Positions 2,167-27,281 of a stretch of DNA of 46,361 bases are shown in pieces. Each line of letters opens with the position of its first letter. Within the stretch, counting starts at the first letter, position 1. The position numbers were made by a program, and so were the translations under genes. The stretch is from Anaerostipes hominis (ex Lee et al. 2021) (lineage in GTDB: Bacteria; Bacillota; Clostridia; Lachnospirales; Lachnospiraceae): the NCBI RefSeq assembly GCF_002270485.1, contig NZ_NQOG01000022.1, forward strand, positions 1 to 46,361, written 5' to 3'. The notes under the pieces are model-generated. The model had not been told where the DNA came from. It saw nothing but the letters and a program-made list of their open reading frames with translations, and ran no database searches.

Positions 2167-3642
2167 TTATGCAAATGGATTCTCGGAAGGATACAACATT
2201 CCCTTCGGCCGGTTAAAATCGAGTTCCGTCTGTTCCACCCCCAGATACCTAAATACCTCAAACAGAAGCTTTCCAAAATGTCCAAAAGCAACTGCTCCGT
2301 GATGCGGGAAATTCTTTTCTATAAGTACGTGACGGTAAAATCTTCCCATTTCCGGTATGGCAAAAACACCTATCCCTCCAAATGATCTTGTCCTCACCGG
2401 GAGTACTTCTCCCTGTGCGATATATGCTCTTAATTTTGAATCTGATGTACTCTGAAGCCGGTAAAATGTAATGTCTCCCGGTATGATATCACCTTCCAGC
2501 GTTCCCTGTGTAGATTCCTCGGGCAGCGTTCTCGTCATGATCAGCTGATTTTTCATTTCGCAGGAAGAGAGCTTTTCTGAAGCCGTATTTCCGCAGTGAA
2601 ATCCCATGAACACATCTCTGCGGCTGTATTCATAACTATCCCTGATTTCTGACTCATACATATCATCAGGTACTGTATTGTTAATATCCAGAAGAGTCAC
2701 AATATCCTGGCTGACTGCCATTCCGATAAATTCGCTCAGAGCTCCGTAAATGTCCACCTCACAGGACACCGGGATTCCCTTTGCCGTCAGCCTGCTGTTG
2801 ACATAGCATGGAACAAAGCCGAACTGAGTCTGAAAAGCAGGCCAGCACTTCCCTGCAATGGCCACATATTTCCTGGAACCCCTATGCTTATCGATCCAAT
2901 CCAGGAGGGTCAACTCATACTGTGCAAGTTTAGGCAGTATCTGAGGTTTTTTATTTCCCTCTCCCAGCTCCTTCTCCATGTCCTTTACCACATCCGGAAT
3001 CCTCTCATCACCCTCATGTGCCTTAAAAGACTCAAACAAATCCAGTTCAGAATTTTCTTCAATCTCGGCTCCCAGATTATAAAGCTGTTTGATCGGTGCG
3101 TTGCAGGCAAGGAAATCCTGTGGTCTCGGACCGAAAGAAATAATCTTTAAGTTACGCACGCCGATCACTGCCCTTGCCACCGGTACAAAGTCATGAATCA
3201 TGTCTGCCACTTCCTCGGCAGTCCCCACCGGATATTCCGGAATATAAGCCTTTACATTTCTAAGCTTTAAATTATAGCTGGCATTGAGCATACCACAGTA
3301 AGCATCACCCCGGTCATCGGTCAGCTTATTCTGTGTCTCTTCGGCTGCCGCCGCAAACATCACCGGCCCGTCGAATTCTTTAGCCAGTAATGTCTCAGCC
3401 GTCTCAGGTCCGAAATTTCCCAGGTAAACAACCAATGCGTTGCATCCTGCTTTTTTAAGCTCTTCAAGGGCTTTCTTCATGTCCAATTCATTTTCAATAC
3501 AAGTCTCACATTCAAAGATTTCCCCGTATTTCTCCCGATAGGCTTTTGCAGCAAGTTTTCTCCTGTTCTCGGACAGTGACATAGGGAAACAATCCCTGCT
3601 GACCGCTGCAATTCCTAAAACTACTTCTGGTATATTTTCCAT
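2167..3642 (-). CDS. L-fucose/L-arabinose isomerase family protein, copy 1
   Basis: The protein has 491 aa. It belongs by pattern to the L-fucose isomerase-related family (COG2407), which interconverts aldoses and ketoses with a divalent metal. It is about 100 aa shorter than E. coli FucI. Likely metal ligands are Glu295 in CEVDIYG, Asp319 in LLDINN and a His in the C-terminal HHGAVAFGHFG. The start has AGGAGGG 7 bases upstream. A close paralog lies at 4920-6404; by eye about three quarters of positions match, including the shared ending KGMLYP-ENPF. The gene sits between aldose 1-epimerase and xylulokinase, so a pentose or 6-deoxyhexose isomerase feeding XylB is the best inference. The actual substrate (xylose, D-arabinose, L-fucose or another) cannot be read from the sequence. 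Confidence 0.8.
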   Translation of the reverse strand: MENIPEVVLGIAAVSRDCFPMSLSENRRKLAAKAYREKYGEIFECETCIENELDMKKALEELKKAGCNALVVYLGNFGPETAETLLAKEFDGPVMFAAAAEETQNKLTDDRGDAYCGMLNASYNLKLRNVKAYIPEYPVGTAEEVADMIHDFVPVARAVIGVRNLKIISFGPRPQDFLACNAPIKQLYNLGAEIEENSELDLFESFKAHEGDERIPDVVKDMEKELGEGNKKPQILPKLAQYELTLLDWIDKHRGSRKYVAIAGKCWPAFQTQFGFVPCYVNSRLTAKGIPVSCEVDIYGALSEFIGMAVSQDIVTLLDINNTVPDDMYESEIRDSYEYSRRDVFMGFHCGNTASEKLSSCEMKNQLIMTRTLPEESTQGTLEGDIIPGDITFYRLQSTSDSKLRAYIAQGEVLPVRTRSFGGIGVFAIPEMGRFYRHVLIEKNFPHHGAVAFGHFGKLLFEVFRYLGVEQTELDFNRPKGMLYPSENPFA

Positions 3643-4919: not shown

Positions 4920-6404
4920 TTATGAAAAAGGATTTTCCGTCGGATATAACATACCCTTCGGCTGGTTGAATCCTATTTCACCGACATCCACACCGATGTA
5001 CTTGAACACTTCATATAATGTTTTTCCAAAGTGTCCGAAAGCGACTGCCCCGTGATGCGGGTAGTTCTTCTCAATCAGTACATGGCGGTAAAATCTTCCC
5101 ATCTCTGGGATGGCAAACACTCCGATGGATCCAAAGGATTTTGTTGCTACCGGAAGAACTTCTCCCTGTGCCACATAGGCCCTTAATTTTGTGTCTGCCG
5201 TGCTCTGTAAACGGAAGAATGTAATATCTCCCGGTGTGATATCTCCTTCCAGGGTTCCCTGAGTCACTTCCTCCGGCAGTGTCCTTGCCATGATCTTCTG
5301 ATATTTCATCTCGCAGAAGGACAGCTTGCTCTTTGCAGTGTTCCCACAGTGGAATCCCATGAAGGTATCTTTCTGTGTATAGTCAAATGTTCCTTTGATA
5401 TCTTCTTCATACATATCGGCAGGAACAGAATTGTTAATGTCAAGAAGCGTTACCGCGTCTTCACTTACCGCAGTTCCGATAAACTCACTTAGCGCTCCGT
5501 AGATATCCACCTCACATGACACAGGGATTCCCTGGGCAGTAAGACGGCTGTTTACGTAGCATGGAACAAAACCGAATTGGGTCTGGAATGCCGGCCAGCA
5601 TTTGCCCGCGATGGCAACATATTTCCTGTAGCCTCTGTGCTCTTCCACCCAGTCTTTCAATGTCAGTTCATACTGGGCAAGCTTTGCCAGAATTTCAGGC
5701 TTCTTATTTCCCTGACCCAGTTCTTCTTCCATTTCTTTTATTATAGAAGGAATCCGTTCATCATCTTTATGATTGTTGAACGCCTCGAACAGATCCAGCT
5801 CTGAGTTTTCTTCAATTTCGATGCCCAGATCATATAATGGCTTGATCGGTGCATTGCAGGCCAGGAAGTTCAGTGGTCTTGGACCGAAAGAAATAATCTT
5901 AAGCTCACTCAGTGCTTTTACCGCTCTCGCGATCGGTACAAATTCATGGATCATATCCGCACATTCCTGCGCAGTTCCAACCGGATATTCCGGGATGTAT
6001 GCCTTAATATTCCGAAGCTTTAAGTTATAACTTGCATTCAGCATTCCGCAGTAGGCATCTCCCCGTCCGTCCAGCAGATTGTTTCCGCTTTCCTCAGCCG
6101 CCGCAACGAACATTTTTGGTCCGTCGAAATGTTTGGCGAGAAGTGTCTCTGAGATCTCCGGTCCGAAGTTTCCGAGATATACTGCCAGCGCGTTGCACCC
6201 TGCCTTTTTGATATCCTCCAGTGCCTGCACCATATGGATCTCGCTCTCTACGATGCAGACCGGACATTCATAGATGTCTTCTTCCCCATATTTTTCTTTA
6301 TAAGCTTTCACTAAAGCTTCTCTCCTGGAAACGGAAAGGCTTTCCGGGAAGCAGTCACGGCTGACTGCTACGATCCCGATTTTTACTTTCGGCATGTTAT
6401 TCAT
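4920..6404 (-). CDS. L-fucose/L-arabinose isomerase family protein, copy 2
   Basis: The protein has 494 aa and is a close paralog of the gene at 2167-3642, with the same family motifs: CEVDIYGALSEF, LLDINN and HHGAVAFGHFGK with the presumed metal-binding Glu, Asp and His. An AGGAGGT site precedes the ATG. It follows the second ABC permease by 14 bases, so it is the first enzyme gene after the transporter and is probably co-transcribed with it. Both copies appear full length, so both may be active. They could have different substrates, form a hetero-oligomer, or be a recent redundant duplication. Confidence 0.8.
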   Translation of the reverse strand: MNNMPKVKIGIVAVSRDCFPESLSVSRREALVKAYKEKYGEEDIYECPVCIVESEIHMVQALEDIKKAGCNALAVYLGNFGPEISETLLAKHFDGPKMFVAAAEESGNNLLDGRGDAYCGMLNASYNLKLRNIKAYIPEYPVGTAQECADMIHEFVPIARAVKALSELKIISFGPRPLNFLACNAPIKPLYDLGIEIEENSELDLFEAFNNHKDDERIPSIIKEMEEELGQGNKKPEILAKLAQYELTLKDWVEEHRGYRKYVAIAGKCWPAFQTQFGFVPCYVNSRLTAQGIPVSCEVDIYGALSEFIGTAVSEDAVTLLDINNSVPADMYEEDIKGTFDYTQKDTFMGFHCGNTAKSKLSFCEMKYQKIMARTLPEEVTQGTLEGDITPGDITFFRLQSTADTKLRAYVAQGEVLPVATKSFGSIGVFAIPEMGRFYRHVLIEKNYPHHGAVAFGHFGKTLYEVFKYIGVDVGEIGFNQPKGMLYPTENPFS

Positions 6405-10144: not shown

Positions 10145-11143
10145 TTAGTACTGGCGTTCGTTGATAAACTTGTCTACGTTATCTTTTGTAAATACCTGTT
10201 CTTCTACATACTGAACCTTCTCTACTTTCTCACCGTTCATGAGCTTCTTAGCAAGGTCTGCTACGCGAGGTCCATGCAGCGGATTACATTCAAACTCAGC
10301 ATTGATCTGTCCGTTCTGTACTTCTTTTAATGCTGCTTTTACAGCGTCGAAGGAAATGATTGTGACATCTTTTCCAGGTTTTTTACCTGCTGCCTTTAAT
10401 GCATCAATCGCACCAAATGCCATGTTGTCATTCTGAGCCACTACGACATCAATGTTTTTGTACTGTTTCAGGAAGGATTCCATTACTTCCTGTCCTTTAG
10501 CCTGTGTAAACTCGCCTGTCTGAGAAGCTATGATCTTAAAGTCCTTAGCGTCTTTAATGCCTTCTTTAAATCCTTTTGTACGTCCGATCTCAGCGGAAGA
10601 ACCGATTGTTCCCTGTAAAACTGCGATGTTGGCAGCTTTCTTACCCTTTTTTTCCATGTCTTTGATCAGCCATTTTCCTGCTTCCACTCCTTCTTTCTTG
10701 AAGTCGGAACCTACCCAGCAGGAAACCAGTGAATCATCAGATGTCTTGATCTGTCTGTCAACAGTGATTACCGGGATGCCTGCTTCCTTTGCTTCTTTCA
10801 GAACAGTTTCCCATCCGGTCTCTGTTACCGGCGCGATCGCGATGACATCCACACCCTGTGAAATAAACTCGCGGACAGCCTTTGTCTGGTTCTCCTGTTT
10901 CTGCTGAGCATCAGCAAAAGATAATTTGAAACCATTTCCCGCAGACAGTGCTTCCTTCATGGACTTTGTGTTGGCAACACGCCAGTCACTCTCCGCACCT
11001 ACCTGTGAAAATCCGATCGTGATCTCCTTGTTATCTTTCTTAGCGGCATCCTTTTTTCCACCTCCGCCGCAGGCTGTCAACATGGTGCCCATCATTGCTG
11101 CACAAAGAGCAATACTAAGAACTTTCTTAAATCCTTTTCTCAT
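10145..11143 (-). CDS. sugar ABC transporter substrate-binding lipoprotein
   Basis: The 332 aa lipoprotein has a signal peptide (MRKGFKKVLS, then a hydrophobic stretch) and a lipobox LTAC with the lipidated Cys25, followed by a Gly/Lys linker. The mature part is a periplasmic-binding-protein type I fold of the ribose/galactofuranose class: ITIGFSQVGAESDWR at the start, GVDVIAIAPVTETGWETVL, GIPVITVDRQI and VVAQNDNMAFGAIDALK. I chose the ATG at 11143 because AAGGAGGAG lies upstream of it. The ESDWR N-terminal pattern is like YtfQ, which binds furanose sugars, so a furanose form of a hexose or pentose is a reasonable guess. It is the first gene of the importer operon. Confidence 0.9.
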   Translation of the reverse strand: MRKGFKKVLSIALCAAMMGTMLTACGGGGKKDAAKKDNKEITIGFSQVGAESDWRVANTKSMKEALSAGNGFKLSFADAQQKQENQTKAVREFISQGVDVIAIAPVTETGWETVLKEAKEAGIPVITVDRQIKTSDDSLVSCWVGSDFKKEGVEAGKWLIKDMEKKGKKAANIAVLQGTIGSSAEIGRTKGFKEGIKDAKDFKIIASQTGEFTQAKGQEVMESFLKQYKNIDVVVAQNDNMAFGAIDALKAAGKKPGKDVTIISFDAVKAALKEVQNGQINAEFECNPLHGPRVADLAKKLMNGEKVEKVQYVEEQVFTKDNVDKFINERQY

Positions 11144-11198
11144 GACTTTCTCCTCCTTAAATTTTCTGAACTTCATGCGGTTCTTACTTACAATATAC

Positions 11199-16921: not shown

Positions 16922-18415
16922 CTATCTGAAGGCTGCTTCGTTCCATCTTAATTCATTTTTAAAGTTACGGATATTGGTATTGGCATCTATATAAACAGCC
17001 TCAATTCCCATAGCATCTGCCCAATCTCCCATCTGCTGTGCGGTCAGATCATATGAGAACGCTGTGTGATGGGCTCCGCCTGCCAGAATCCACGCCTCGG
17101 CGCCTACCGGAAGATTCGGTTTCGGAGTCCAGAACGCAGTGGCAACCGGAAGCTTCGGCATCGGCTGTTCCGTCTTTTTGCAGTCAACCTCATTAATGAT
17201 CAGGCGGAACCTGTGTCCGAGATCAACTAAAGATGTGGCAACTGCCGGCCCTTCTTTTGCCGTAAAGACAAGTCTTGCGGGGTCTTCCCTGTCTCCCATG
17301 GAGAGAGGATTTACTTTGATGCTTATCGGTCCCTCCGCAATCGTCGGACATACTTCCAGCATATGAGCCTGAAGAATTCCCTCTTTTCCAGGCACAAAGT
17401 TATAGGTGTAATCTTCCATGAAAGAGGTTCCCTTTGCGTCTTTCTTTCCTGCCGTCATAATCTTCATCAGACGCACCATAGCAGCCGTCTTCCAGTCTCC
17501 TTCCGCTCCGAAACCGTATCCTTTCTCCATCAGTCTCTGAATCGCAAGACCCGGAAGCTGTTTTAAAGAGCCGAGATCCCCAAAATGAGTCACAATGGCC
17601 TGATAATCTTTTTCCGTCAGGAATTTCTCGAATCCGAGTTCGATCTGAGCCTGAACGGCGGCATGTTTTTTAAATTCTCCGGCATCTCTTCCCTCCAGAA
17701 GAATTTCGTATTTGTCGTAATATTCTTCTACCAGCGCATCCGTATCACCTTTAGAGACAGCCTCAACATAATCTGCGATTTCATTGACTGGATATGCGTC
17801 GATCTCCCATCCGAATTTGATCTGGGCTTCTACTTTATCTCCCTCTGTGACCGCTACATTCCTCATGTTGTCTGCCACACGCGCCACACGTATATGGCTG
17901 CTCTCCATGATTCCGACAGCAGTTCTCATCCAGGAAGCAATTTCTCTCTTTACTCTCTCATCGTCCCAGAATCCTACGACAACTTTCCGCTCAATTCCCA
18001 TGCGTGAAACAATATGTCCATACTCTCTGTCGCCATGTGCTGACTGATTCTCGTTCATAAAATCCATATCAATTGTCTGATACGGAATCTCCTGATTAAA
18101 CTGCGTATGTAAATGAAGCAGCGGCTTTCTGTATTCCTGCAGCCCCAAAATCCATGATTTTGCAGGAGAAAACGTATGCATCCATGTGATGACTCCGGCA
18201 CAGTTCTCATCTGAGTTTGCTTCATTAAAAGTTCTTCTTATGGATGCATTATCAATCAGAGTAGGCTTCCACACAATTTCATAGGGAAGGATACCTGACT
18301 TATTCAGTGCTTCCACGATTATTTTTGAGTGTTGTGCTACATGAAAAAGACATTCTTCTCCATATAAATCCTGTGATCCTGTTGCAAACCAAAATTGATA
18401 TTTTTTTGTGTTCAT
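16922..18415 (-). CDS. araA: L-arabinose isomerase
   Basis: The protein has 497 aa, full length, and converts L-arabinose to L-ribulose. Family features: FWFATGSQDLYGEE at the start, WMHTFSPAKSWILGL, FGDLGSLKQLPGLAIQRLME, GAEGDWKTAA, and the metal site in MEDYTYNF, QAHMLEVCPT and AGGAHHTAFSY. Its start overlaps the end of the upstream regulator by 4 bases, so araR and araA are translationally coupled. It is unrelated in detail to the two shorter fucose-isomerase-like genes in the same island. Confidence 0.96.
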   Translation of the reverse strand: MNTKKYQFWFATGSQDLYGEECLFHVAQHSKIIVEALNKSGILPYEIVWKPTLIDNASIRRTFNEANSDENCAGVITWMHTFSPAKSWILGLQEYRKPLLHLHTQFNQEIPYQTIDMDFMNENQSAHGDREYGHIVSRMGIERKVVVGFWDDERVKREIASWMRTAVGIMESSHIRVARVADNMRNVAVTEGDKVEAQIKFGWEIDAYPVNEIADYVEAVSKGDTDALVEEYYDKYEILLEGRDAGEFKKHAAVQAQIELGFEKFLTEKDYQAIVTHFGDLGSLKQLPGLAIQRLMEKGYGFGAEGDWKTAAMVRLMKIMTAGKKDAKGTSFMEDYTYNFVPGKEGILQAHMLEVCPTIAEGPISIKVNPLSMGDREDPARLVFTAKEGPAVATSLVDLGHRFRLIINEVDCKKTEQPMPKLPVATAFWTPKPNLPVGAEAWILAGGAHHTAFSYDLTAQQMGDWADAMGIEAVYIDANTNIRNFKNELRWNEAAFR

Positions 18416-19527
18416 CTTTTTTCCTCCATCCTGCGTCTGTCTTTACACGAGTTCCTGACGATGAGTTCAGGCTCGATCACTCTTGTTACTTTTGATTTTT
18501 CATTTGGTATTCCCTGAATCTGTTCCAGCAGAAGCTGTCCGGCCATCTCCCCGAGCTTTTTCTGCGGATGGGCAATTGTGGTCAGTTTAATGACTCCCAG
18601 CCTTGCCAAAGCCGAATTATCATATCCAGTGACAGATATATCATCCGGTATGCTGATCCCCAAAGCCTCCAGCTCGTAAATAATCTCCAGCGCGATCTGG
18701 TCGTTATAACAGACTACCGCGTCCATCGGGAATCCCTCTTTTGTCATTCTGTGAATTTCTCCCCTGGGCTTTGATGCCCTGTCTTCTGTGTGGAACCATA
18801 TGACCGCATCAGGATTATACGGGATACCCGCCTCATTCAGAGCCATGACATAGCCCCTGTGGCGTTCTTTTCCCTGATAATCGTCCGCCTTAAAAATTCC
18901 TGCGATAAATCTGTGCCCTGTTTCAATCAAATGTTTTGTCAGAAGATATCCTCCCTTACAGTCATCCATTACGATATAAGGTTTATCTGTCATCTCAGAG
19001 TAAACACCCTGAATAAAAACATAGGGAATCTCATATTGATCCAGCGTCTGATAAAGATTCGGATGTTTACAAAACAGTTCACTCTTACTCGGTTCTATGA
19101 TTAGACCGTCAACATCTTTCGTCAGAATATCCTCCAGACATTTTGTCTCATTGACACGGCTGTTTCCTGTTGTCTTAAACATCAGACTGTAACCGTTTTC
19201 CGTGAGAACCTGGTTAATCCCGTTTAGCACCTGCGGAAAAATATAATCTGATATATAAGTTGTGATAACGGCAATATTTCTGGACTGCTTTTTATGGATT
19301 GCCCGCTCCGTACAAAAAGTGCCCTTTCCGTGATATGCAACGATATACCCTTCGTCTTCCAGAATTGAGAGTGCTTTTCTCACTGTATGCCGGCTGATAG
19401 ACAGCTCCCGCGCCAGCTGATTTTCTGAAGGCATTTTGTCTCCGGGCTTGTAAATTCCGGATAAAATATCATTTTTCAGATCTTCTTTCAGCTTAAAATA
19501 TTTCATTGAACCCGCTTTATTAGCCAT
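18412..19527 (-). CDS. araR: arabinose operon repressor, GntR HTH plus LacI-type effector domain
   Basis: The 371 aa protein has an N-terminal GntR winged helix (LKEDLKNDILSGIYKPGDKM and LARELSISRHTVRKALSILE, about 10-75) joined to a LacI/GalR-type sugar-binding domain (NIAVITTYISDYIFPQVLNGI, VDGLIIEPSKS, PDDISVTGYDNSALARL). This is the AraR architecture, in which L-arabinose releases the repressor. GGGAGG precedes the ATG. It is the first gene of the ara operon, and a candidate operator lies 31 bases upstream, so it probably represses itself and araABD. Confidence 0.92.
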   Translation of the reverse strand: MANKAGSMKYFKLKEDLKNDILSGIYKPGDKMPSENQLARELSISRHTVRKALSILEDEGYIVAYHGKGTFCTERAIHKKQSRNIAVITTYISDYIFPQVLNGINQVLTENGYSLMFKTTGNSRVNETKCLEDILTKDVDGLIIEPSKSELFCKHPNLYQTLDQYEIPYVFIQGVYSEMTDKPYIVMDDCKGGYLLTKHLIETGHRFIAGIFKADDYQGKERHRGYVMALNEAGIPYNPDAVIWFHTEDRASKPRGEIHRMTKEGFPMDAVVCYNDQIALEIIYELEALGISIPDDISVTGYDNSALARLGVIKLTTIAHPQKKLGEMAGQLLLEQIQGIPNEKSKVTRVIEPELIVRNSCKDRRRMEEKR

Positions 19528-19751: not shown

Positions 19752-20102
19752 ATGAAACTACTTTGTATCACAAAATGCCCGACCGGAATGGTCCAAACCT
19801 ATGTTGCTGCTGAACAGCTTGAATCGGCTGCTGAAGCCCTTGGTTATGAAATCAGGACAGAGACACACGGCGCACAGGGAATCGGTGGAGAATTTACTCC
19901 GGAGCAGATTGATGAGGCTGATTATGTAATCATCGCATCCAACACAGAAGTTGAAAAGACGACAAGGTTTGGGAACAAAAAGCTTCTTGTTGTTCCCCTG
20001 GAGGATGCCACAAATAACGCTGAGTCTGTGCTCGGACGTGTACTCGAGGAATCTGAAACATATGAACAATCAAAGAAACAGTTTCCCAAAATCCTGAAAT
20101 AA
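19752..20102 (+). CDS. orphan PTS fructose-type EIIB domain protein
   Basis: The 116 aa cytoplasmic protein resembles single-domain fructose-family PTS IIB proteins, which carry phosphate from IIA to the sugar on IIC. The phospho-Cys is Cys9 in ITKCPTGMVQTYVAAEQL. Most relatives read CPTGIAHT here, so the usual His is Gln15. NAEDV-like spacing is kept, with VIIASNTEVEKTTRF in the middle. GGAGGAG lies 6 bases before the chosen ATG; an in-frame ATG at 19737 is the alternative. No IIA or IIC gene is in the window, and the gene has its own promoter and terminator. It may be a leftover of a lost PTS operon, or it may serve a IIC encoded elsewhere or a regulatory role. Confidence 0.8.
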   Translation: MKLLCITKCPTGMVQTYVAAEQLESAAEALGYEIRTETHGAQGIGGEFTPEQIDEADYVIIASNTEVEKTTRFGNKKLLVVPLEDATNNAESVLGRVLEESETYEQSKKQFPKILK

Positions 20103-20141
20103 TCAAAAGGGGATTTCCTCAGTTGCTCAATTATTGAACAA

Positions 20142-20186
20142 AGACAGTCTCAATGAGTCTATACTGATTGAGGCTGCCTTTTTCTA
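20142..20186 (+). terminator. terminator after the PTS IIB gene
   Basis: Stem CAGTCTCAAT with ATTGAGGCTG (one G-U pair) is followed by CCTTTTTC on the plus strand. It is a clear intrinsic terminator and ends next to the convergent DUF4867 pseudogene. Confidence 0.85.
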
Positions 20187-20773
20187 TCATCGGAAATTCT
20201 GTGTTTTCTGATATACAGCTATTGTATCTCCTTTTAATCCGCAAAAGGCACCTTCCACGCCTGCTTCTCTATTTGCAAACAGTGTTCGGTCTTTTCTGTC
20301 TCCTGTCTGAATTTCCAAAGGTTCATTCGTGTGCCTAACATTCACTGAAATCACTTTGAATCCATAGCTGTTGATATTACACGGAGTACAATGAAGTACT
20401 TCCGGATTGATCTTTAACGCAGTTCCCTTAGGAATAAAGAAGCCTTCCATATATTTTGTGTTATACACCTGATTAAACTCCATATTTTTCTTTTCTCCAA
20501 AAAACATGACACAATCGGAAGCCGTTATAAACAGCTGACAGGTTTTATGGTACTCCACCATATTGATTTTATGGTTATGTCCCAGACACCATCCCACTTG
20601 TATTTCCTTTCCGTTAAATAACTTTTCCTGCACTCAAGTTCTCTTGCAGATTCTGTCTGTTTGATGCCTTTATCAACTTGTACGCCTTTCATTAACTCCA
20701 CAACACCGGTGAAATCAAACTGGTTTACTACTTCACCATACCTGCTGAATTTTTCATCAAATACATAGTTCAT
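20187..20773 (-). pseudogene. DUF4867-like cupin-type protein, frameshifted
   Basis: Two overlapping minus-strand reading frames together match the intact protein at 26673-27281. The N-terminal part (MNYVFDEKFSRYGEVVNQFDF) comes from 20773 and the C-terminal part (VGWCLGHNHKINMVEYHK to GAFCGLKGDTIAVY) ends at 20187. The frame breaks near 20630, where the second frame has a stop just before its GTG. Compared with the intact copy about six residues are also missing at the break, so a small deletion of about 19-20 bases fits. The histidine-rich GHNH and EYHK motifs suggest a cupin fold. The family's function is unknown. Confidence 0.8.
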
Positions 20774-21109
20774 TTTTTACAACTCCTAATTTATCCCTTG
20801 TGTTTCCTGTTACTTTGTATTCTACAAGGTTCATGAATTTTTTCGACCTAATATCCTATGAACTTGTTTAAAATTTTTACGAATTTCATGTATATGTTTT
20901 CCATAAGTTGTTTAATTTTAGATTATAGTTTGTTTGTTTTTGAAAAAACACAAGACAAACCTGCGACAAGTAGACAACCTGGATAGCTTCATCAACCTAT
21001 CGCTTTAAAGACTTTATACAAATTACATAAAACTCTTACAATTATTATATGTATTTTTTACAAATTAAACGTTTAACATAAAATTATTATACCACGAAAG
21101 GATGTTAAA
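20774..21109. other. AT-rich divergent intergenic region
   Basis: These 336 bases lie between the minus-strand DUF4867 pseudogene and the plus-strand broken operon. I see no gene. The region is strongly AT-rich and should hold divergent promoters. It ends with a perfect palindrome described separately and an ATTATTATACC stretch that could contain a -10 box for the plus-strand operon. Confidence 0.6.
21065..21076. promoter_or_regulatory. candidate LacI-family operator
   Basis: TTAAACGTTTAA is a perfect 12-base palindrome with a central CG, the typical form of a LacI/GalR-family operator. It overlaps the presumed promoter about 35 bases before the broken operon. The intact LacI-family gene at 23265 follows that operon and is the natural candidate to bind here. 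Confidence 0.6.
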
Positions 21110-22205
21110 ATGATACATAATAATACCTTCAAAGCAGATTTTTCAGACAAAGGGCAGCTCATCCGTCTGGAATTCAACAAAAATGCTTCATGCATGAACT
21201 GGGTAGTGGATCCCTCTTATCTATCTGAGGCAGGATATAAGGAAGCGGATAAACTTTTTGGTTCTTTTGATCTGTCCATAGGTGATCAGACTTACCAGAC
21301 TCAGGATGTCTCCCCGTCTATTAATCTTTCTTCCCATAATAAAGCTGTGATCTCCTATGATTTTGACCGTTTCAAACTTAACTTTATCTATGACCTTAGT
21401 TCTGACCCTAACACTTTTGATTTCCATATCCCCCTTCTAAATAAAGAACAGGAACCTCTCGTAATCCGGGATTTCGGTGTTTGGACATCCTTTGCCTACA
21501 TCATGTTCCGGGATAAGGATATCCTTAAAAACATCCGGCAGTCAGCCGCTTTCCGTCTGTCTCTCCCGACTATACGAAGATTGCCCTCCACAGGAGAAAC
21601 AATCAGGGTCCCCATCTCGGAGTTTATCAGACGGCCGGAGAAACCTTTTCCGTAGGTACTTACTGTGCCTATGAAAATCTTTTCTTTGAAAATGTTTCCC
21701 CTTCTTTGGACGGGATTTTGTTTCACAAATTAATCCTGGCAGGAGGTTATGCCGAAGATGAGGGACCTTTAAAAGATTGGATTTACAAAAGAGAGCCGAC
21801 TGAACTTCCAGCCGGTTCAGAAAAAACCTGGACATACCGCATGGCTCCTTATAATACAGAAAAACAATTTTATGAAAAGGGGTATTCTTTCGGACATCCT
21901 ATTATTCATTACTCACCGATGACCTTATGCGGAGATTCTTTTATGATGAACGTAAAACTCCCTGAAAACCGCAGCATCAGCAGGGCCGACATGACTTTTG
22001 AAAAAGACCATGCGACCACGACCATGTGTCAGCTGAACAAGTGGGGAAGCTGCATCTACATACAGCGTAGCCGGGCCTCATATCAACCGCCCGGACCTTT
22101 CCAGAAACCGGTTCGGACAGTCCACTTTTGCCAAAGACGGAGGTATTTTTGCCCGACTCTTTACCGACAGCACCAGTACCCCTGACTGGGATATGGGAGA
22201 AGAAA
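21110..22205 (+). pseudogene. large carbohydrate-related protein remnant (DUF5695-like), frameshifted and internally deleted
   Basis: The frame is open from the ATG at 21110 (GAAAGGATG upstream) through FGVWTSFAYIMFRDKDILKN, then shifts near 21547. The shifted frame continues as VSPDYTKIALHRRNNQGPHL and ETFSVGTYCAYENLFFENV and on to TTMCQLNKW near 22044. There the frame changes again, to EAASTYSVAGPHINRPDLSR and FAKDGGIFARLF. The last block looks like the far C-terminal part of a large protein, so several hundred residues appear to be missing between the two blocks. The remnant then runs in frame into a sugar-symporter fragment. The family name is a low-confidence recognition. Confidence 0.6.
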
Positions 22206-23071
22206 TAAATACGGAAAAAATTACGACACCGAACCTGACCGGCTCCGCAAAGATTGCCTGGGCAGTCATCACCTATATCACCGCAGGAGTGCTGTACTCC
22301 GGCATTTCAACGCCGATTACTTCTATCCTGCCCAACTTAAGCAGTGATGCAGACGAGAGAATCGTGCTGAACTCCTACCGTATGACAGGCGGAAATGTAG
22401 GATACTTTCTGGCCGTTACCTTCATTCTCCCAATGGTCGGTATTCTCGGAAGAGGAAACGACCGTGCGGGCTTCACCCGTGCCGTTGCCATCTTTGCCGT
22501 CATCGGAGTCATTTTGTTTTTGTTTGCATTTACCTGTCTGAGAGAGGAAAACGCCCAGGCGGAGAAATCTATTTCCATCAAAAAAAGTATCGGCGCAATC
22601 AAGGGAAACTGGCCGTGGGTCATCATCGTTGGAGCCAACCTTTTTTACTGGCTTGCCAACACGGTTCGTACATCCTCCCTTGTCTATTATTTTCAGTATA
22701 ATCTGGACCGAAAAGATTTGGTTCCCGTGATCAACGGTCTTTCCCTGATCCAGGTATTGGGCGTGGTTTTGATTCCTTTTATTACGAAAAAATTCAACAA
22801 ATGTACTACCATGATCTTTGGCCTGGCTCTGACCAGTACCGGACATGTGATCATGGGCATTGCAGGCCCTGCGATTCCTCTGCTGGTAGCCGGATGGCTC
22901 ATCGCCTGTGTCGGCACCGGTATCGCGGCTTCCTCCCTGATGGCAATTAAGTTCAACTTCATCTGGCTTCCGATTCTTATGTTTTTGGGCGGAGCAGTCG
23001 TCATGTTTTTCTACCACAGACATGAGGCCAATGAAATGACCATCAAAATGGAACTTGCCCAAAGAAGATAA
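22206..23071 (+). pseudogene. GPH-family sugar:cation symporter remnant, copy 1
   Basis: The reading frame resembles glycoside-pentoside-hexuronide symporters of the major facilitator type. It starts at about the third membrane helix (PNLTGSAKIAWAVITYITAG), so the N-terminal 80-100 residues are missing. It continues through the central loop and helices (NSYRMTGGNVGYF, FQYNLDRKDLVPVINGLSL). Near the end, GTGIAASSLMA is joined directly to IKFNFIWLPILMFL, so the usual cytoplasmic segment with the DTVEYGEW-type motif and the helix after it is gone, in frame. The upstream frame is continuous with the broken carbohydrate gene, so the exact junction (about 22205) is estimated. It is unlikely to transport. 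Confidence 0.75.
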
Positions 23072-23080
23072 TCCACGTAT

Positions 23081-23110
23081 AATGGGACTGTACAAGCAGT
23101 CCCATTTTTT
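23081..23110 (+). terminator. terminator after the GPH remnant
   Basis: Stem AATGGGACTG with CAGTCCCATT, loop TACAAG, then TTTTT. It is a strong intrinsic terminator, kept although the genes before it are broken. Confidence 0.88.
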
Positions 23111-23232
23111 ATTCCATAGGAAGTTCGTCCTATGGAATAAAAAAGCCCTGCGGGCAGGATGCACAGCTTCGCGCGCGGAACAAAAGCTGTGCATAGAAAA
23201 AACTGATTTGCGAGGTGTGTAAAGCACACTTT
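23111..23232. repeat. palindrome-rich structured non-coding element
   Basis: A chain of inverted repeats with little spacing: ATTCCATAGGA/TCCTATGGAAT (23111-23121, 23128-23138), GCCC/GGGC around 23145-23155, ATGCACAGCTT/AAGCTGTGCAT (23159-23169, 23184-23194), and GTGTG/CACAC (23215-23219, 23225-23229). It is more GC-rich than its surroundings and fits neither the terminator before it nor the LacI gene after it. It could be a miniature mobile or REP-like repeat, or a structured RNA. Confidence 0.5.
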
Positions 23233-23264
23233 TGTTCTATCTTCCATGAAAAGGATCCTATGAT

Positions 23265-24293
23265 ATGACTACTATCCGTGAAATCGCAGCTGCCTGCAAT
23301 GTCTCCACCGCAACCGTCTCAAACATTCTGAATGGAAAGGCCAAAGCCAGCAAAGAGACCATTGAACTTGTGAGAAAGACAGCCCAGCGGCTGAACTATA
23401 CACCGAATTATATTGCAAAAAATTTAAAATTAAAGACCTCCAACACGATTGGGGTAATCGCAGAGGATATGACTGTATTTAACTCCCCTGATATCATTGA
23501 CGGTATTACAGAATACTGTGAAGAGCACAAATATCAGATCCTTTTAACAAACTTACGGCTGTTCCAGAAATTCGGAGATTTTTATTACACAAAAAACAAT
23601 CTTGGGCAGCTCATAAATTATGAAATTAACGAGCTGAGATCCAGACAGGCCAGAGCCATCATCTATGTAGCTCCCCATGTACGTGACATTAAAACCGTGT
23701 CTTCCGGCCTGAATCTGCCGATTGTCATGGCCTACTGTACCAGCCCCGACCCGGGGGTCCCTTCTGTGCTGGCAGACGATGAGGACGGTTTCTACCGTAT
23801 CACTAAATCAGTCCTAAAAAAAGGGTTCCGACATCCCGGACTGATTGCCGGAAAACCGGGAAGCTACCACACTGCGGAACGCCTGAAAGGCTTCCGGCGT
23901 GCTCTTCTGGAATTTCATTTCCCCTTTTCCGAAAAGTTTGTTTATTACGGCGAATGGAACCGCCGGACAGGCTGTGAGGGAGCTGCTGCCTTGATGGGGA
24001 AATCTGTGGATTCTATCTTATGTATGAGTGATATCATCGCGGGAGGAGTTTATGACTGGTGCCATGATCAGAACATCACACCCGGTAAGGACATTCCTGT
24101 CACCGGATTCGACAACCGGGAACTCTCCGCTTATTTATATCCTCCTTTAACGACTGTAAATCTTCCTTTGAAGCAAATAGGAAGAAAATCCTGTGAAGTC
24201 GCCGACCACATGATAGCGGATGGAGAAAATCATCGTTTGGAAAAGCAGTACCTAAAGATAAAGTGTAAGGTCGTTAACAGAACATCATTATAA
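23265..24293 (+). CDS. LacI-family transcriptional regulator
   Basis: The 342 aa protein appears intact. An N-terminal LacI helix-turn-helix (TTIREIAAACNVSTATVSNIL, then NGKAKASKETIELVRKTAQ and LNYTPNYIAKNLK) is followed by a sugar-binding domain (NTIGVIAEDMTVFNSPDIIDGI, SILCMSDIIAGGVYDW, DIPVTGFDNRELSAYLYPPLTT). AAAGGA precedes the ATG. The gene follows the ruined carbohydrate gene/GPH operon and precedes its own terminator. It most likely controlled that operon through the palindrome at 21065. With the targets broken it may be an orphan, or it may control genes elsewhere. Confidence 0.9.
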   Translation: MTTIREIAAACNVSTATVSNILNGKAKASKETIELVRKTAQRLNYTPNYIAKNLKLKTSNTIGVIAEDMTVFNSPDIIDGITEYCEEHKYQILLTNLRLFQKFGDFYYTKNNLGQLINYEINELRSRQARAIIYVAPHVRDIKTVSSGLNLPIVMAYCTSPDPGVPSVLADDEDGFYRITKSVLKKGFRHPGLIAGKPGSYHTAERLKGFRRALLEFHFPFSEKFVYYGEWNRRTGCEGAAALMGKSVDSILCMSDIIAGGVYDWCHDQNITPGKDIPVTGFDNRELSAYLYPPLTTVNLPLKQIGRKSCEVADHMIADGENHRLEKQYLKIKCKVVNRTSL

Positions 24294-24298
24294 TATAA

Positions 24299-24339
24299 AA
24301 AGAAGCCATGCAGATGATGTGCAGTGGCTTCTTTTTATG
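24299..24339 (+). terminator. terminator after the LacI regulator
   Basis: Stem AAGAAGCCATGCA with TGCAGTGGCTTCTT (one bulge/mismatch), loop GATGATG, followed by TTT. It ends six bases after the lacI stop region. Confidence 0.85.
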
Positions 24340-24447
24340 AAATAATTAATTTTTTTCCTCAACTAAAAAGTACTTAGAGAAAGAATTAAGTTGATTGTAT
24401 TTAGTTTAACCTAGTCCGTATAAAACTTCGTTATTGTAAAATTATAG

Positions 24448-25068
24448 GTGATATTGAAATTTTTGTCCATTCATGATAAAATAAAGGAGAACACAAAAAA
24501 TGATTATGCTTTTACACAAGTAATGAAAAACCCTAAGATACTAAAAGGATTTCCTGGCAGTATTCTTGGCTTTAATCAATTTCCAGATACTGACTATTTT
24601 TATTCCTCCTTTCATATGCGGGAGGATAACAGACAGTCTTTGTACAGTGACCAATGGGAAATCCATGTAATTGAATTAAAAAAGCTGAACAAATCTGAAG
24701 TAAAAGATAATCATAAAACCCTATATAAGTGGGCATGCCTTATCAGTGCAGACAGAGAGGAGGAACGTATGATAATTGAGAAAGATCCCTATATCGAGGA
24801 AGCCGTCAAGGAACTGGAAAAACTAGAACGTGATCCGAATCGCATGGATGAATATCTCTTCCGTCAGAAAAATCTATCCGATTACGCTACACAGATGAAG
24901 TTCAGCAAAGAGCTGGGAAAAACTGAAGGAAGGGCTGAAGGTGAGTATATGTTTGCATCTCTGATGCAGAGATTATTTCTGGATGGAAGAATTGAAGATG
25001 CCCGGCTTGCTGTCGGAGATGAGAATATGAGAATAAAACTTTATAAGGAATATCATTTAATAAAATAA
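24448..25068 (+). pseudogene. Rpn/PD-(D/E)XK transposase remnant lacking the catalytic core
   Basis: The open frame codes for 206 aa. The start NTKNDYAFTQVMKNPKILKGF and the later QWEIHVIELKKLNK, YKWACLISADREEE and acidic C-terminal half match the Rpn recombination-promoting nuclease/putative transposase family. Relatives are about 300 aa, and the nuclease core between GSILGFNQF and FHMREDNR (roughly 80-100 residues) is absent, in frame. The start is uncertain: the GTG at 24448 has no good ribosome site, while an AAAGGAG lies inside the frame at about 24483. It is probably inactive. Confidence 0.7.
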
Positions 25069-25077
25069 TATACATAT

Positions 25078-25122
25078 AAAAAGGTAAGACAACTACAGAA
25101 ATATTAGTGTCTTACCTTTTTA
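25078..25122. terminator. terminator between converging remnants
   Basis: Stem AAAAAGGTAAGAC with GTCTTACCTTTTT and a loop of about 20 bases. It has T-runs on both strands, so it can end transcription from the Rpn remnant (plus) and from the second GPH remnant (minus). Confidence 0.85.
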
Positions 25123-25128
25123 TCTATT

Positions 25129-25725
25129 TTAAGCTTTCTTTTCTCTCCTGGCTTTCAAATCCTTCTGTACAGTCGGATAAATTTTATCAATTCCCAGGAA
25201 CAGGTACCAGATGACGAGTACCGCCACAGTGATAATCAGAGGCATATACAGAAACAGCGACTTGATCGCAAAGATTGCGGAAGCACTCTGAACTGCTGCA
25301 GTCCCATCGTAGCTTCCTGCTGCCAGAATCCATCCCAATGCCGCATGTCCGATTCCCTGGAAAACCAGCCCTGCATAGAGAAACGGAAGTGAAGTCGGCA
25401 TCAGAATTTCCAGTATTAATCCGGCTCCGTAAAAGGTAAATCCTGCAATCAAAGCCTTGATCTTACCAAACTTCTTTGTAAATACAGGGATTAAGAGTAT
25501 CGTCAATATAGTAGGTATGTAGTTAAACAGAGTCATTGTACTGTTCAGATATTCATTTCCAAGGACATACTTTGCATAATAGATTCTTGATCCGGATGTC
25601 AGTCCCAGAGACACATAAATAACTGCAAATGCCAGAGTAATTAAAATAAAATATTTATTTCTGCATAATACTTTGATCGTCTTTAACGGATAAGATTTCT
25701 GTTTTGTGTCTTTTCTCCGTTTTCA
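25129..25725 (-). pseudogene. GPH-family sugar:cation symporter remnant, copy 2
   Basis: The frame is open from a TGA at 25725. It begins in the central loop ([20 protein letters not shown]) and continues through later helices to the C-terminal tail YPTVQKDLKARREKK, so the first half of a roughly 460 aa symporter is missing. GIGHAA is joined directly to LGWILAAGSYDG, which removes the cytoplasmic segment and one or two helices usually found between two Gly-Ile-Gly motifs; the frame is kept. The 5' end is joined out of frame to the phosphoketolase remnant. It has no proper start codon or ribosome site. Confidence 0.78.
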
Positions 25726-26414
25726 TCAAACAGTTCTTCCGGACGATAGCTTAATAACCATTCTTTCAGCTGATCCATATGTTCCGGCTGTTCCATCGTC
25801 ATCGGCATCGGATCGCTGCCCTCTACGAAGTATGGCTTCCATCCGCATCCCTCGAAGAATTTTTCCAGTTCTTCATGAGAAATTCTTGAGAAGACTGTCG
25901 GGTTGCTGATCTTATATCCGTTTAAGTGAAGGATCGGAAGTACGGCTCCGAAAGAATGTGCCAGTGAATAACCGAGTTCTCCTCCTTCATGGATAGATCC
26001 CGGTGTCTCTGGTGCAACGTGGCTTGAAATTCCTCCCGGGAAAGAAAACTGTTTGAACAGTTTTTTCATTCCTTCGATATCACGGCTGACATTTGGGTAA
26101 ACTTCGCTGTAAGTTCCTTCTAAGTAAGCATTGGCAACCATAAAGTTTCCGCCGTGACCAGGTCCTGAGCTATAAATCATGTCCAGGTCATACTCTTTAA
26201 TCAAACGGTTTAAGTGGGTATAGATAAAGTTCTGTCCCGGCACGGTTCCCCAGTGTCCTACGATTTTTTTCTTAATCTGTTCTTCCGTCAATGGTTCACG
26301 AAGCAGAGGATTATCCAATAAATACAGCTGTCCGGCAGACAAGTAGTTTGCAGCACGCCAATACGCATCCATCTTCTGAAGCAATTCATCGGATATATTC
26401 TGATTGTCTTGCAT
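25683..26414 (-). pseudogene. xfp: xylulose-5-phosphate/fructose-6-phosphate phosphoketolase remnant
   Basis: The first about 220 codons are a clear phosphoketolase N-terminus: [58 protein letters not shown] and [19 protein letters not shown]. The enzyme splits xylulose 5-phosphate into acetyl phosphate and glyceraldehyde 3-phosphate and is normally about 790 aa. After FVEGSDPM the frame jumps to [16 protein letters not shown] and [11 protein letters not shown], skipping roughly 100 residues in frame. It then ends after a few foreign codons, where it is joined to the GPH remnant. The total is 243 aa. The start has AAAGGAG, so a stable fragment could still be made, but it cannot be an active enzyme. 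Confidence 0.88.
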
Positions 26415-26542
26415 GATTTCTCCTTTCGATTTTAAGAGCTCTAAAAATAAACAACAAGTGTTAAAAAGGGAATTTGTTAATAATTTCAAAGAACGTCCGA
26501 GCATGACGTTTTTGTTTATTATTTAACGAAGAAAACAATAAT

Positions 26543-26568
26543 ACTTGTTGCTTGTGTGCGCAACTTGT
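26543..26568 (-). promoter_or_regulatory. ACTTGT repeats before the phosphoketolase remnant
   Basis: ACTTGT occurs at 26543-26548 and 26563-26568 on the plus strand, with a further CTTGT at 26551 between them. Read on the minus strand, a weak promoter (TTGCGC, 17 bases, TATTGT) overlaps these. The half-site is the same as at the araR operator and the importer promoter, so the lost phosphoketolase probably belonged to the same pentose regulon. Confidence 0.45.
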
Positions 26569-26620
26569 TTCTCTTAAAATCCAGATAAATCGTCAAATTC
26601 TAAAAAAACATAAAAGAATC

Positions 26621-26651
26621 AAAAAAAACAGCACCAAATTAAATTTGATGC
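26621..26651 (-). terminator. terminator after the intact DUF4867 gene
   Basis: On the minus strand, stem GCATCAAA with TTTGGTGC (one G-U pair) and loop TTTAA are followed by TGTTTTTTTT. It lies 21 bases after the stop. Confidence 0.85.
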
Positions 26652-26672
26652 CGTTACTGGTCCTGACTTCTA

Positions 26673-27281
26673 TTATACTGCTTCTGTATCACCCTTGAGC
26701 CCGTAAAACGCCCCTTCAATATCGGAATCTTTATGAGCAATCAGCCACTTGTTCCTTGCAAACAGAATCTTATCCTTTTCCGTCCTTACTTTCATACAAA
26801 ATGGTTCACTTGTATGTTTTGGTGCAATACAGATAAGCTTAAACCCATATCCGTTTACATTGCATGGAGCACAGTGAAGTACGCCGCAGTTTAACTCCAC
26901 GGCTGTGCCCTTCGGGACAAAAAACGCTTCCATTCTGGATGTATGATACTCGTGGGTTGGTTCGATATCCTGGCTCAGACCCAAGTACATAACACAGTCT
27001 GTCGCTGCAATATGTATGACTTTCGATTTGTGATACTCTACTCCATGGATTCTGTGATTATGTCCGCTCATATAACCAATCTGTACCGGAAGCTCATGAA
27101 ACAGTTCGCACTGAATCTTATGACACACCGGCATTTTCTCCATCTCTTCGACGGACAGCTGTTCTTCCAGATATTTTGAAGCCGTTATACGGTCCATATA
27201 CTGTTTCAGCTGGCTAAAATCAAAATCTTCTATTATTCTCCCATATTTTTTAAATTCGGGGTCAAAAATATACCTTAACAT
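26673..27281 (-). CDS. DUF4867 family protein, cupin-like
   Basis: The 202 aa intact protein has the block VQIGYMSGHNHRIHGVEYHK, then TDCVMYLG, EAFFVPKGTAVELN, VLHCAPCNVNGYGFK and KHTSEPF. Its spaced His/Glu residues suggest a cupin-type barrel that could bind a metal and a sugar. DUF4867 genes tend to sit near sugar-metabolism genes, but I know of no assigned reaction. It follows the fumarase beta gene by 76 bases with AAGGAG before the ATG and may be co-transcribed. A frameshifted paralog lies at 20187-20773 in the decay zone. Confidence 0.8.
   Translation of the reverse strand: MLRYIFDPEFKKYGRIIEDFDFSQLKQYMDRITASKYLEEQLSVEEMEKMPVCHKIQCELFHELPVQIGYMSGHNHRIHGVEYHKSKVIHIAATDCVMYLGLSQDIEPTHEYHTSRMEAFFVPKGTAVELNCGVLHCAPCNVNGYGFKLICIAPKHTSEPFCMKVRTEKDKILFARNKWLIAHKDSDIEGAFYGLKGDTEAV

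Follow-up and report, generated by a model that had tools for sequence, protein, structure and literature searches.

How can several neighbouring genes each come to lack an internal segment while the remaining flanks stay joined in the same reading frame? The question is raised by the draft genome of Anaerostipes hominis (ex Lee et al. 2021), hereafter G000 (3,325,148 bp, 85 contigs). The window analysed here (contig C15:1-46361, 46,361 nucleotides) contains at 20214-26414 a stretch packed with remnants of a phosphoketolase (XFP), two GPH symporters (GPH1 and GPH2), an Rpn gene and a gene for a protein of ~790 amino acids (aa). An earlier note on this DNA had proposed recombination between short repeats acting repeatedly on one locus, either neutrally or through selection to remove active proteins without frameshifts. 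Our analysis indicates that the stretch is probably a sugar gene cluster in decay, which is being worn away by internal deletions that arose independently and in large number. These deletions would have formed largely between short direct repeats, through replication slippage or microhomology-mediated end joining, and in-frame joins would be frequent since such repeats, within coding sequence, tend to fall in the same codon phase. Many other loci of this lineage, which is losing genes, would be decaying likewise.

To map the junctions, we aligned each remnant in a frame-aware manner to full-length homologues, using tblastn for the ~790-aa gene (L063, L070 and L086). Homologues were taken from relatives and from 53 loci in named genomes found via GPH1, and full-length open homologues were available for all five genes. 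The resulting map is as follows.

20214..20773, minus strand: remnant of a second DUF4867 copy (Pfam PF16161 matches both pieces, though at the N-terminal piece its score is under the curated cut-off)
21110..22207, plus strand: remnant of the ~790-aa gene, C-terminus lost (tblastn and frame-aware alignment; no Pfam match for the intact L063 homologue)
22208..22222, plus strand: in-frame fusion that joins the ~790-aa gene, at homologue residue ~714, to GPH1 at homologue residue ~107-113, both flanks in frame +2
22223..23071, plus strand: GPH1 symporter remnant (Pfam MFS_2; 57% identity over 242 aa to L061, Paenibacillus sp. OK003)
23265..24293, plus strand: LacI-family regulator, full length (Pfam LacI and Peripla_BP_3; full-length homologues)
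24463..25068, plus strand: Rpn (PDDEXK_2) remnant (298-aa counterpart L037:10937-11833)
25132..25704, minus strand: GPH2 symporter remnant (76-80% identity to L119 on either side of the gap)
25705..25718, minus strand: out-of-frame fusion of XFP (residue ~343-348) to GPH2 (residue ~248), frame -1 to -3
25689..26414, minus strand: XFP remnant (Pfam XFP_N; homologues L040-L043 of 791-799 aa; aligned to L042 and L043)

The remnants are real. As the earlier note had read from the letters, the phosphoketolase, GPH1, GPH2 and Rpn lack internal segments with their flanks joined in frame, and the gene that it had called a carbohydrate gene has lost its middle: ~348 aa are gone in frame from the ~790-aa gene at 22008/22009 (a single gap against L070; several in-frame gaps of similar sum against L063 and L086). 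The regulator is indeed intact, its best relatives in other genera aligning over residues 1-341, 2-340, 1-340 and 1-341 at 41-46% identity. The picture of one simple central loss per gene was nevertheless incomplete. XFP has lost 40 aa at 25950/25949 and a further 66 aa at 25806/25805, each in frame, and its C-terminal ~440 aa are gone, the remnant ending at residue ~343-348 of ~791. GPH2 has lost its N-terminal ~247 aa as well as 40-46 aa in frame at 25345/25344; GPH1 lacks its N-terminal ~110 aa in addition to ~56-63 aa in frame at 22927/22928, and the apparent start of its open reading frame (ORF) at 22193 is a Met codon belonging to the upstream ~790-aa gene. In Rpn, an 11-aa in-frame gap at 24489/24490 precedes an 87-aa in-frame deletion at 24558/24559 that takes most of the nuclease core. 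Nor are all joins in the stretch in frame, although the six large internal ones are: the reading frame of the ~790-aa gene changes near 21548 and again near 22038 (further changes placed by alignment vary among the three homologues of this poorly conserved gene and were not counted), XFP is fused to GPH2 out of frame, and the DUF4867 remnant is missing a net 22 bp, which breaks its frame, near 20630 (20633/20624, by alignment to L037, L038 and window positions 26673-27281) besides a 7-aa in-frame gap at 20277/20276.

The six intragenic deletions of at least 100 bp at the locus (40 and 66 aa in XFP, 46 in GPH2, 87 in Rpn, 63 in GPH1 and 348 in the ~790-aa gene) are all in frame, as are 8/9 of those of at least 20 bp. 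Against an expectation of one third, six of six gives P = 0.0014; the locus was, however, picked for its in-frame look, so that in-frame P values are post hoc and overstate the case.

The genome itself supplied a control. We compared G000 contigs C1 and C23 (708,660 bp; 527,571 alignment columns in a collinear chain) with the same-genus genome G008, which differs by ~9% at the DNA level, scoring as a deletion any gap of at least 25 bp in one genome and at most 3 bp in the other, and as intragenic those with both ends in one ORF, up to 3 kb. G000 carries 66 deletions versus 14 in G008, and 44 of these are intragenic, in 24 genes, versus 0 in G008. Some of the 24 genes are perhaps not dead, such as a 90-bp case in a 406-aa ORF (58-bp overlap, nearly the entire gene aligned). 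Decay peculiar to this one locus, as first suggested, is thus not what the genome presents. In-frame joins account for 21/44 control deletions overall, 17/32 of those of at least 100 bp and 4/12 of the shorter ones, and the longest run of consecutive in-frame intragenic deletions in the control is itself six. Clustering of in-frame status by gene was rejected, with two of the nine genes that have at least two deletions being wholly in frame (permutation 0.29).

The polarity of these events was examined with a second relative, G009. Within C1:1-320000, the missing segment was matched in G009 for 17/20 intragenic deletions (two of the 17 non-collinear) and unmatched for three. We also scanned these 320 kb of G000, and 400 kb of each relative, at the protein level. 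References from G008 (240/318 ORFs placed) revealed 24 internal deletions in G000 and references from G009 (228/322 placed) 11; neither set revealed a single one in G008 or in G009. Three of the 24 derive from a 920-aa reference whose own remnant lies outside the 320 kb, so that these hits probably fell on a paralogue, and two of the 11 come from a similar 912-aa reference. Pfam searches with 20 of the 24 intact counterparts (one slightly shortened) identified transporters, a xanthine-dehydrogenase-type enzyme, a PRD regulator, an antiporter, a transaldolase and others, with one of the 20 giving no match. The excess of deletions is derived in the G000 lineage, and the focal locus is one case among many. 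This lineage-wide pattern, rich in large internal deletions with no raised substitution rate, is more surprising than the locus itself.

What do the junctions share? Among the 36 of 44 control intragenic junctions that were clean (eight were dropped for a local match below 80%), exact microhomology averaged 2.14 bp, versus 0.76 bp for 4000 simulated deletions that were matched in length and placed at random. Microhomology of at least 4 bp was seen in 22% versus 2.5%, and of at least 6 bp in 11% versus 0.2%. True junction homology is probably underestimated, G008 being itself ~9% different. At the focal locus, short repeats were seen by eye at four of the six large junctions, in the most favourable proxy DNA and with no null of their own, with 6-11 matching bases: both ends of the first XFP deletion share CCGTATT and those of the second 11/12 bases (both in L041), the ends of the GPH2 deletion have 6/9 bases in common (L119) and those of the Rpn deletion 8/9, AGTAT(C/T)CTT (L037). 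Recombination between short repeats finds support here and in the control junctions, acting across the genome rather than on one locus alone. The same process presumably made the focal junctions.

Repeats of this kind are biased in phase. In 18 full-length homologues of the five genes, we counted exact direct repeats whose copies lie 60-1500 bp from each other; the two copies share codon phase in 1484/2487 pairs at lengths of at least 7 bp, 481/748 at 8, 170/249 at 9 and 51/72 at 10; for ORFs of at least 330 aa in the window and L037, the corresponding counts were 1359/2502, 434/730, 116/208 and 41/73. Overall, 54-71% of direct repeats of at least 7 bp in the coding DNA examined are in phase; among the 18 homologues, most of the bias comes from XFP genes. 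Because short repeats often share codon phase, decay mediated by them predicts much of the in-frame excess, and selection is not required. The control junctions agree in direction, albeit with small numbers: 8/11 with at least 3 bp of exact homology are in frame (6/7 at 3-5 bp, 2/4 at 6 bp or more) versus 11/25 with 0-2 bp. A search by title and the start of the abstract, confined to open-licence literature, returned no paper on the codon phase of repeats in bacterial decay, a weak negative.

As to the enzymatic route, the junction homology fits slippage or microhomology-mediated joining, and plain end joining could account for some of the cases with 0-2 bp. G000 and G009 each have a Ku gene, whereas none was found in G008, and a gene that reads as an ATP-dependent ligase stands beside it in both genomes that have it. 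In G000 this Ku gene adjoins the ligase-like gene near an IS66-like transposase (L226:9107-10812, contig C65; ligase and transposase named by reading). End joining by Ku and ligase was rejected as a sufficient cause of the difference between lineages, since G009 has Ku yet shows 0 internal deletions in its sampled region. No match to the RecT recombinase was found in G000, G008 or G009.

Several observations sit uneasily with decay through repeats alone. The focal six of six exceeds the genome's own in-frame rate, with one-sided Fisher values of 0.019 (versus 21/44) and 0.034 (versus 19/36 clean junctions) and ~0.037 by hand versus the 17/32 large control deletions, and the XFP, GPH2, GPH1 and Rpn remnants are free of internal stops and small frameshifts. 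The proxies in which the focal repeats were read are stand-ins for ancestral DNA at 58-89% protein identity. The DNA check covered four of the six junctions, those of XFP, GPH2 and Rpn, and the second XFP deletion has retained an extra CCGATG, hence is not a simple repeat collapse. Repeats in Rpn are not clearly phase-biased (6/14 at lengths of at least 8 bp, in a single gene). In the control, 25/36 junctions have 0-2 bp of homology, so that repeats do not account for every deletion; the in-frame rate is uneven, at 8/20 in C1:1-320000 and 13/24 in the rest, and the protein scan of the first 320 kb gives 8/24 in frame, not above one third. Finally, the only focal remnant tested for constraint, Rpn, is constrained.

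Part of this would be explained had selection favoured in-frame joins, because out-of-frame remnants yield harmful peptides or exert polarity on downstream genes. The six of six at the locus, the four remnants that are still open and a genome-wide 21/44 above one third (binomial 0.033) are what such selection would leave, and PMC2916853 argues that young pseudogenes are removed by selection. Set against this, the phase of repeats of at least 7 bp by itself predicts the in-phase share given above, neighbours within the stretch carry frameshifts and an out-of-frame fusion, and 15/32 large deletions elsewhere in the genome are out of frame. Under gene-specific repeat-phase rates, the focal six of six has P ~0.04, again post hoc; the excess over the genome's own rate is marginal, and a weak post hoc excess is left over. 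We therefore regard selection for in-frame joins as unlikely. The earlier alternative of selection is not needed for the in-frame joins, since repeat phase suffices for much of them and 17/32 are in frame elsewhere; it is weakly suggested at most. Far less probable still is an assembly artefact in which the missing segments were collapsed or skipped. That the genome is a draft in 85 contigs speaks for such an error, but the focal stretch contains fusions and small frameshifts, and the repeats at the junctions are far shorter than the word lengths used in assembly. Nor is collapse a likely general cause, for genes with deletions elsewhere have a looser codon-position constraint and a surplus of small frameshifts: codon position 3 holds a 0.615 share of differences in the 24 deleted genes versus 0.759 in the 468 intact ones, and the density of small frameshift indels is 2.03 versus 0.43 per kb, the latter figure probably including some alignment noise. 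This comparison set aside 24 partly aligned genes that have no such deletions (0.605; 5.70 per kb).

The Rpn remnant raises the further idea that some remnants are functional short proteins, its C-terminal part acting like RpnS after loss of the nuclease core. The deletion takes most of that core and spares the C-terminal domain: the PDDEXK_2 profile (229 positions) is matched over 113-225 in the window versus 2-225 in L037, short of a complete nuclease core. The C-terminal 168 codons are 88.7% identical to L037 with a ratio of nonsynonymous to synonymous divergence (dN/dS) of 0.09, and RpnS is described in PMC10327210 as a small protein that Rpn toxin-antitoxin genes produce by separate translation. 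A low pairwise dN/dS would fit a recent truncation equally well, and the truncated transporters and a phosphoketolase N-terminus of ~348 residues would have no plausible activity. The truncation of Rpn may be recent, or its C-terminal part may still be used; across the locus we consider functional remnants very unlikely, and the remnants are presumably without function. Synonymous divergence of Rpn from L037 is 0.62, whereas two neighbouring genes have less than half of this (0.23 and 0.29), so that Rpn either evolves faster or is something other than a plain vertical counterpart of the gene in G008.

Compatible with erosion of the cluster through short repeats, yet going beyond it, is the idea that the G000 lineage has a raised rate of large deletions and not merely more dead genes. 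Such a deletion-specific mutator would make short-homology deletions of ~60-1500 bp far commoner than in relatives with no rise in substitutions, and dead genes would be hollowed out by one deletion after another, many of them in frame, instead of being broken by frameshifts or stops. A general mutator was rejected by a relative-rate test on 135 orthologue triples (48,655 codons), in which G000 showed no raised substitution rate: unique differences at codon position 3 numbered 2881 in G000 versus 3235 in G008, and at positions 1 and 2 together 842 versus 788. The slightly higher share at positions 1 and 2 in G000 fits slightly weaker selection. The internal deletions of the protein scan (24 and 11 with the two reference sets, versus 0 and 0 in the relatives) favour the idea of a deletion mutator, as do the little-changed frameshifts. 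Among all placed G009 references (225 in G000, 241 in G008), small frameshifts numbered 6 versus 4 and large deletions 12 versus 0, which hints, on small numbers, that large deletions rather than inactivation in general are in excess. However, of 218 references placed in both genomes, 11 look broken only in G000 and three only in G008 (15 in both, a bare count; apparent stops were taken at face value), and more broken genes would by themselves allow more deletions; moreover, Ku also occurs in G009, which shows no such deletions, RecT is unmatched in all three genomes, and no causal gene was found. We hold a deletion mutator to be a tentative and rather improbable addition to the decay of the cluster through short repeats.

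To the right of the cluster lies a conserved block running from a dnaA-like through a gyrA-like to fumarate-hydratase-like genes and a DUF4867 gene at 26673-27281; to the left of the island are two genes, at 680-2146 and, isomerase-like, at 2167-3642 (the names dnaA, gyrA, fumarate hydratase, isomerase and kinase were read from translations, with no search behind them). These flanks are ~23 kb apart in G000. In G009, 324 bp separate the DUF4867 gene from the isomerase-like gene at the same place, and G008 has an Rpn gene within ~1.2 kb there, the only same-place counterpart of the focal genes. Part of the 23 kb has long open frames in the ORF list, for example 16922-18415 and 18412-19527. The gene at 2167-3642 has a paralogue within the island at 4920-6404 (491 and 494 aa), the two being 97% and 77% identical to one G008 gene.

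The ~790-aa gene has a phosphoketolase (788 aa) and a GPH symporter (458 aa) as its neighbours in Enterococcus sp. CSURQ0835 (L063), so that the window remnants resemble pieces of a neighbourhood present elsewhere. Members of the ~790-aa family lie near GPH symporters at L063:6190-8559 in Enterococcus, L070:23-2398 in Levilactobacillus and L086:7255-9654 in Paenibacillus, and the L063 member has no Pfam match. Within the bacterial family, close relatives of the pieces are rare: GPH1 was matched at E 1e-50 or better in 1/299 genomes (itself) and GPH2 at E 1e-20 or better in 3/250 (itself and two others). For the ~790-aa gene, the N-terminal piece was matched in 1/98 (itself). A DNA search of 10 same-genus genomes matched XFP in G007 and left GPH1, GPH2 and the ~790-aa gene unmatched. 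The G007 phosphoketolase ORF (L044:2831-4114) is 427 aa long versus 791-799 aa in four others and is possibly another broken copy. A 'near' mode search gave no plasmid match to 20000-26800.

Short repeated elements were also noted. At 23105-23240, an imperfect palindrome followed by ~100 bp forms an interspersed element, parts of which recur at 75-95% identity in other G000 contigs and several relatives, with two near-full-length copies in G008 (91-94% identity). Two further short repeat families of ~85-140 bp (L127:5720-5862 and 11022-11163) have many copies in G008 and G009. Rfam at the gathering score gave no match in L009 or L127.

Two implications follow for the reading of decaying genes. 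In-frame internal deletions should not be taken as a sign of selection before correction for repeat phase, given that 54-71% of direct repeats of at least 7 bp in the coding DNA examined are in phase. G000, with 44 intragenic deletions versus 0 in a same-genus relative, is a natural case that can be used to study what determines how often a bacterium deletes DNA.

Like the Rpn recombination-promoting nucleases and RpnL-RpnS toxin-antitoxin genes (PMC10327210), 24463-25068 matches PDDEXK_2 and keeps the C-terminal part; unlike them, it has lost most of the nuclease core. The decay of bacterial pseudogenes under deletional bias (PMC2916853) is likewise a process in which unselected genes are inactivated and removed by deletions. 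There, indels shorter than 10 bp and premature stops are two of the commonest pseudogene lesions (Kuo and Ochman 2010), whereas the 24 deleted genes of G000 hold 44 large internal deletions and 26 small frameshift indels, stops not being part of this count. A parallel in junction structure is Haloquadratum walsbyi, in which many deletions are flanked by direct repeats of 4-20 bp (PMC3119063), as G000 too has repeat-flanked deletions. That case concerns an archaeon compared within one species, whereas G000 is a bacterium in which the deletions cluster inside dead genes and the codon phase of repeats has been measured.

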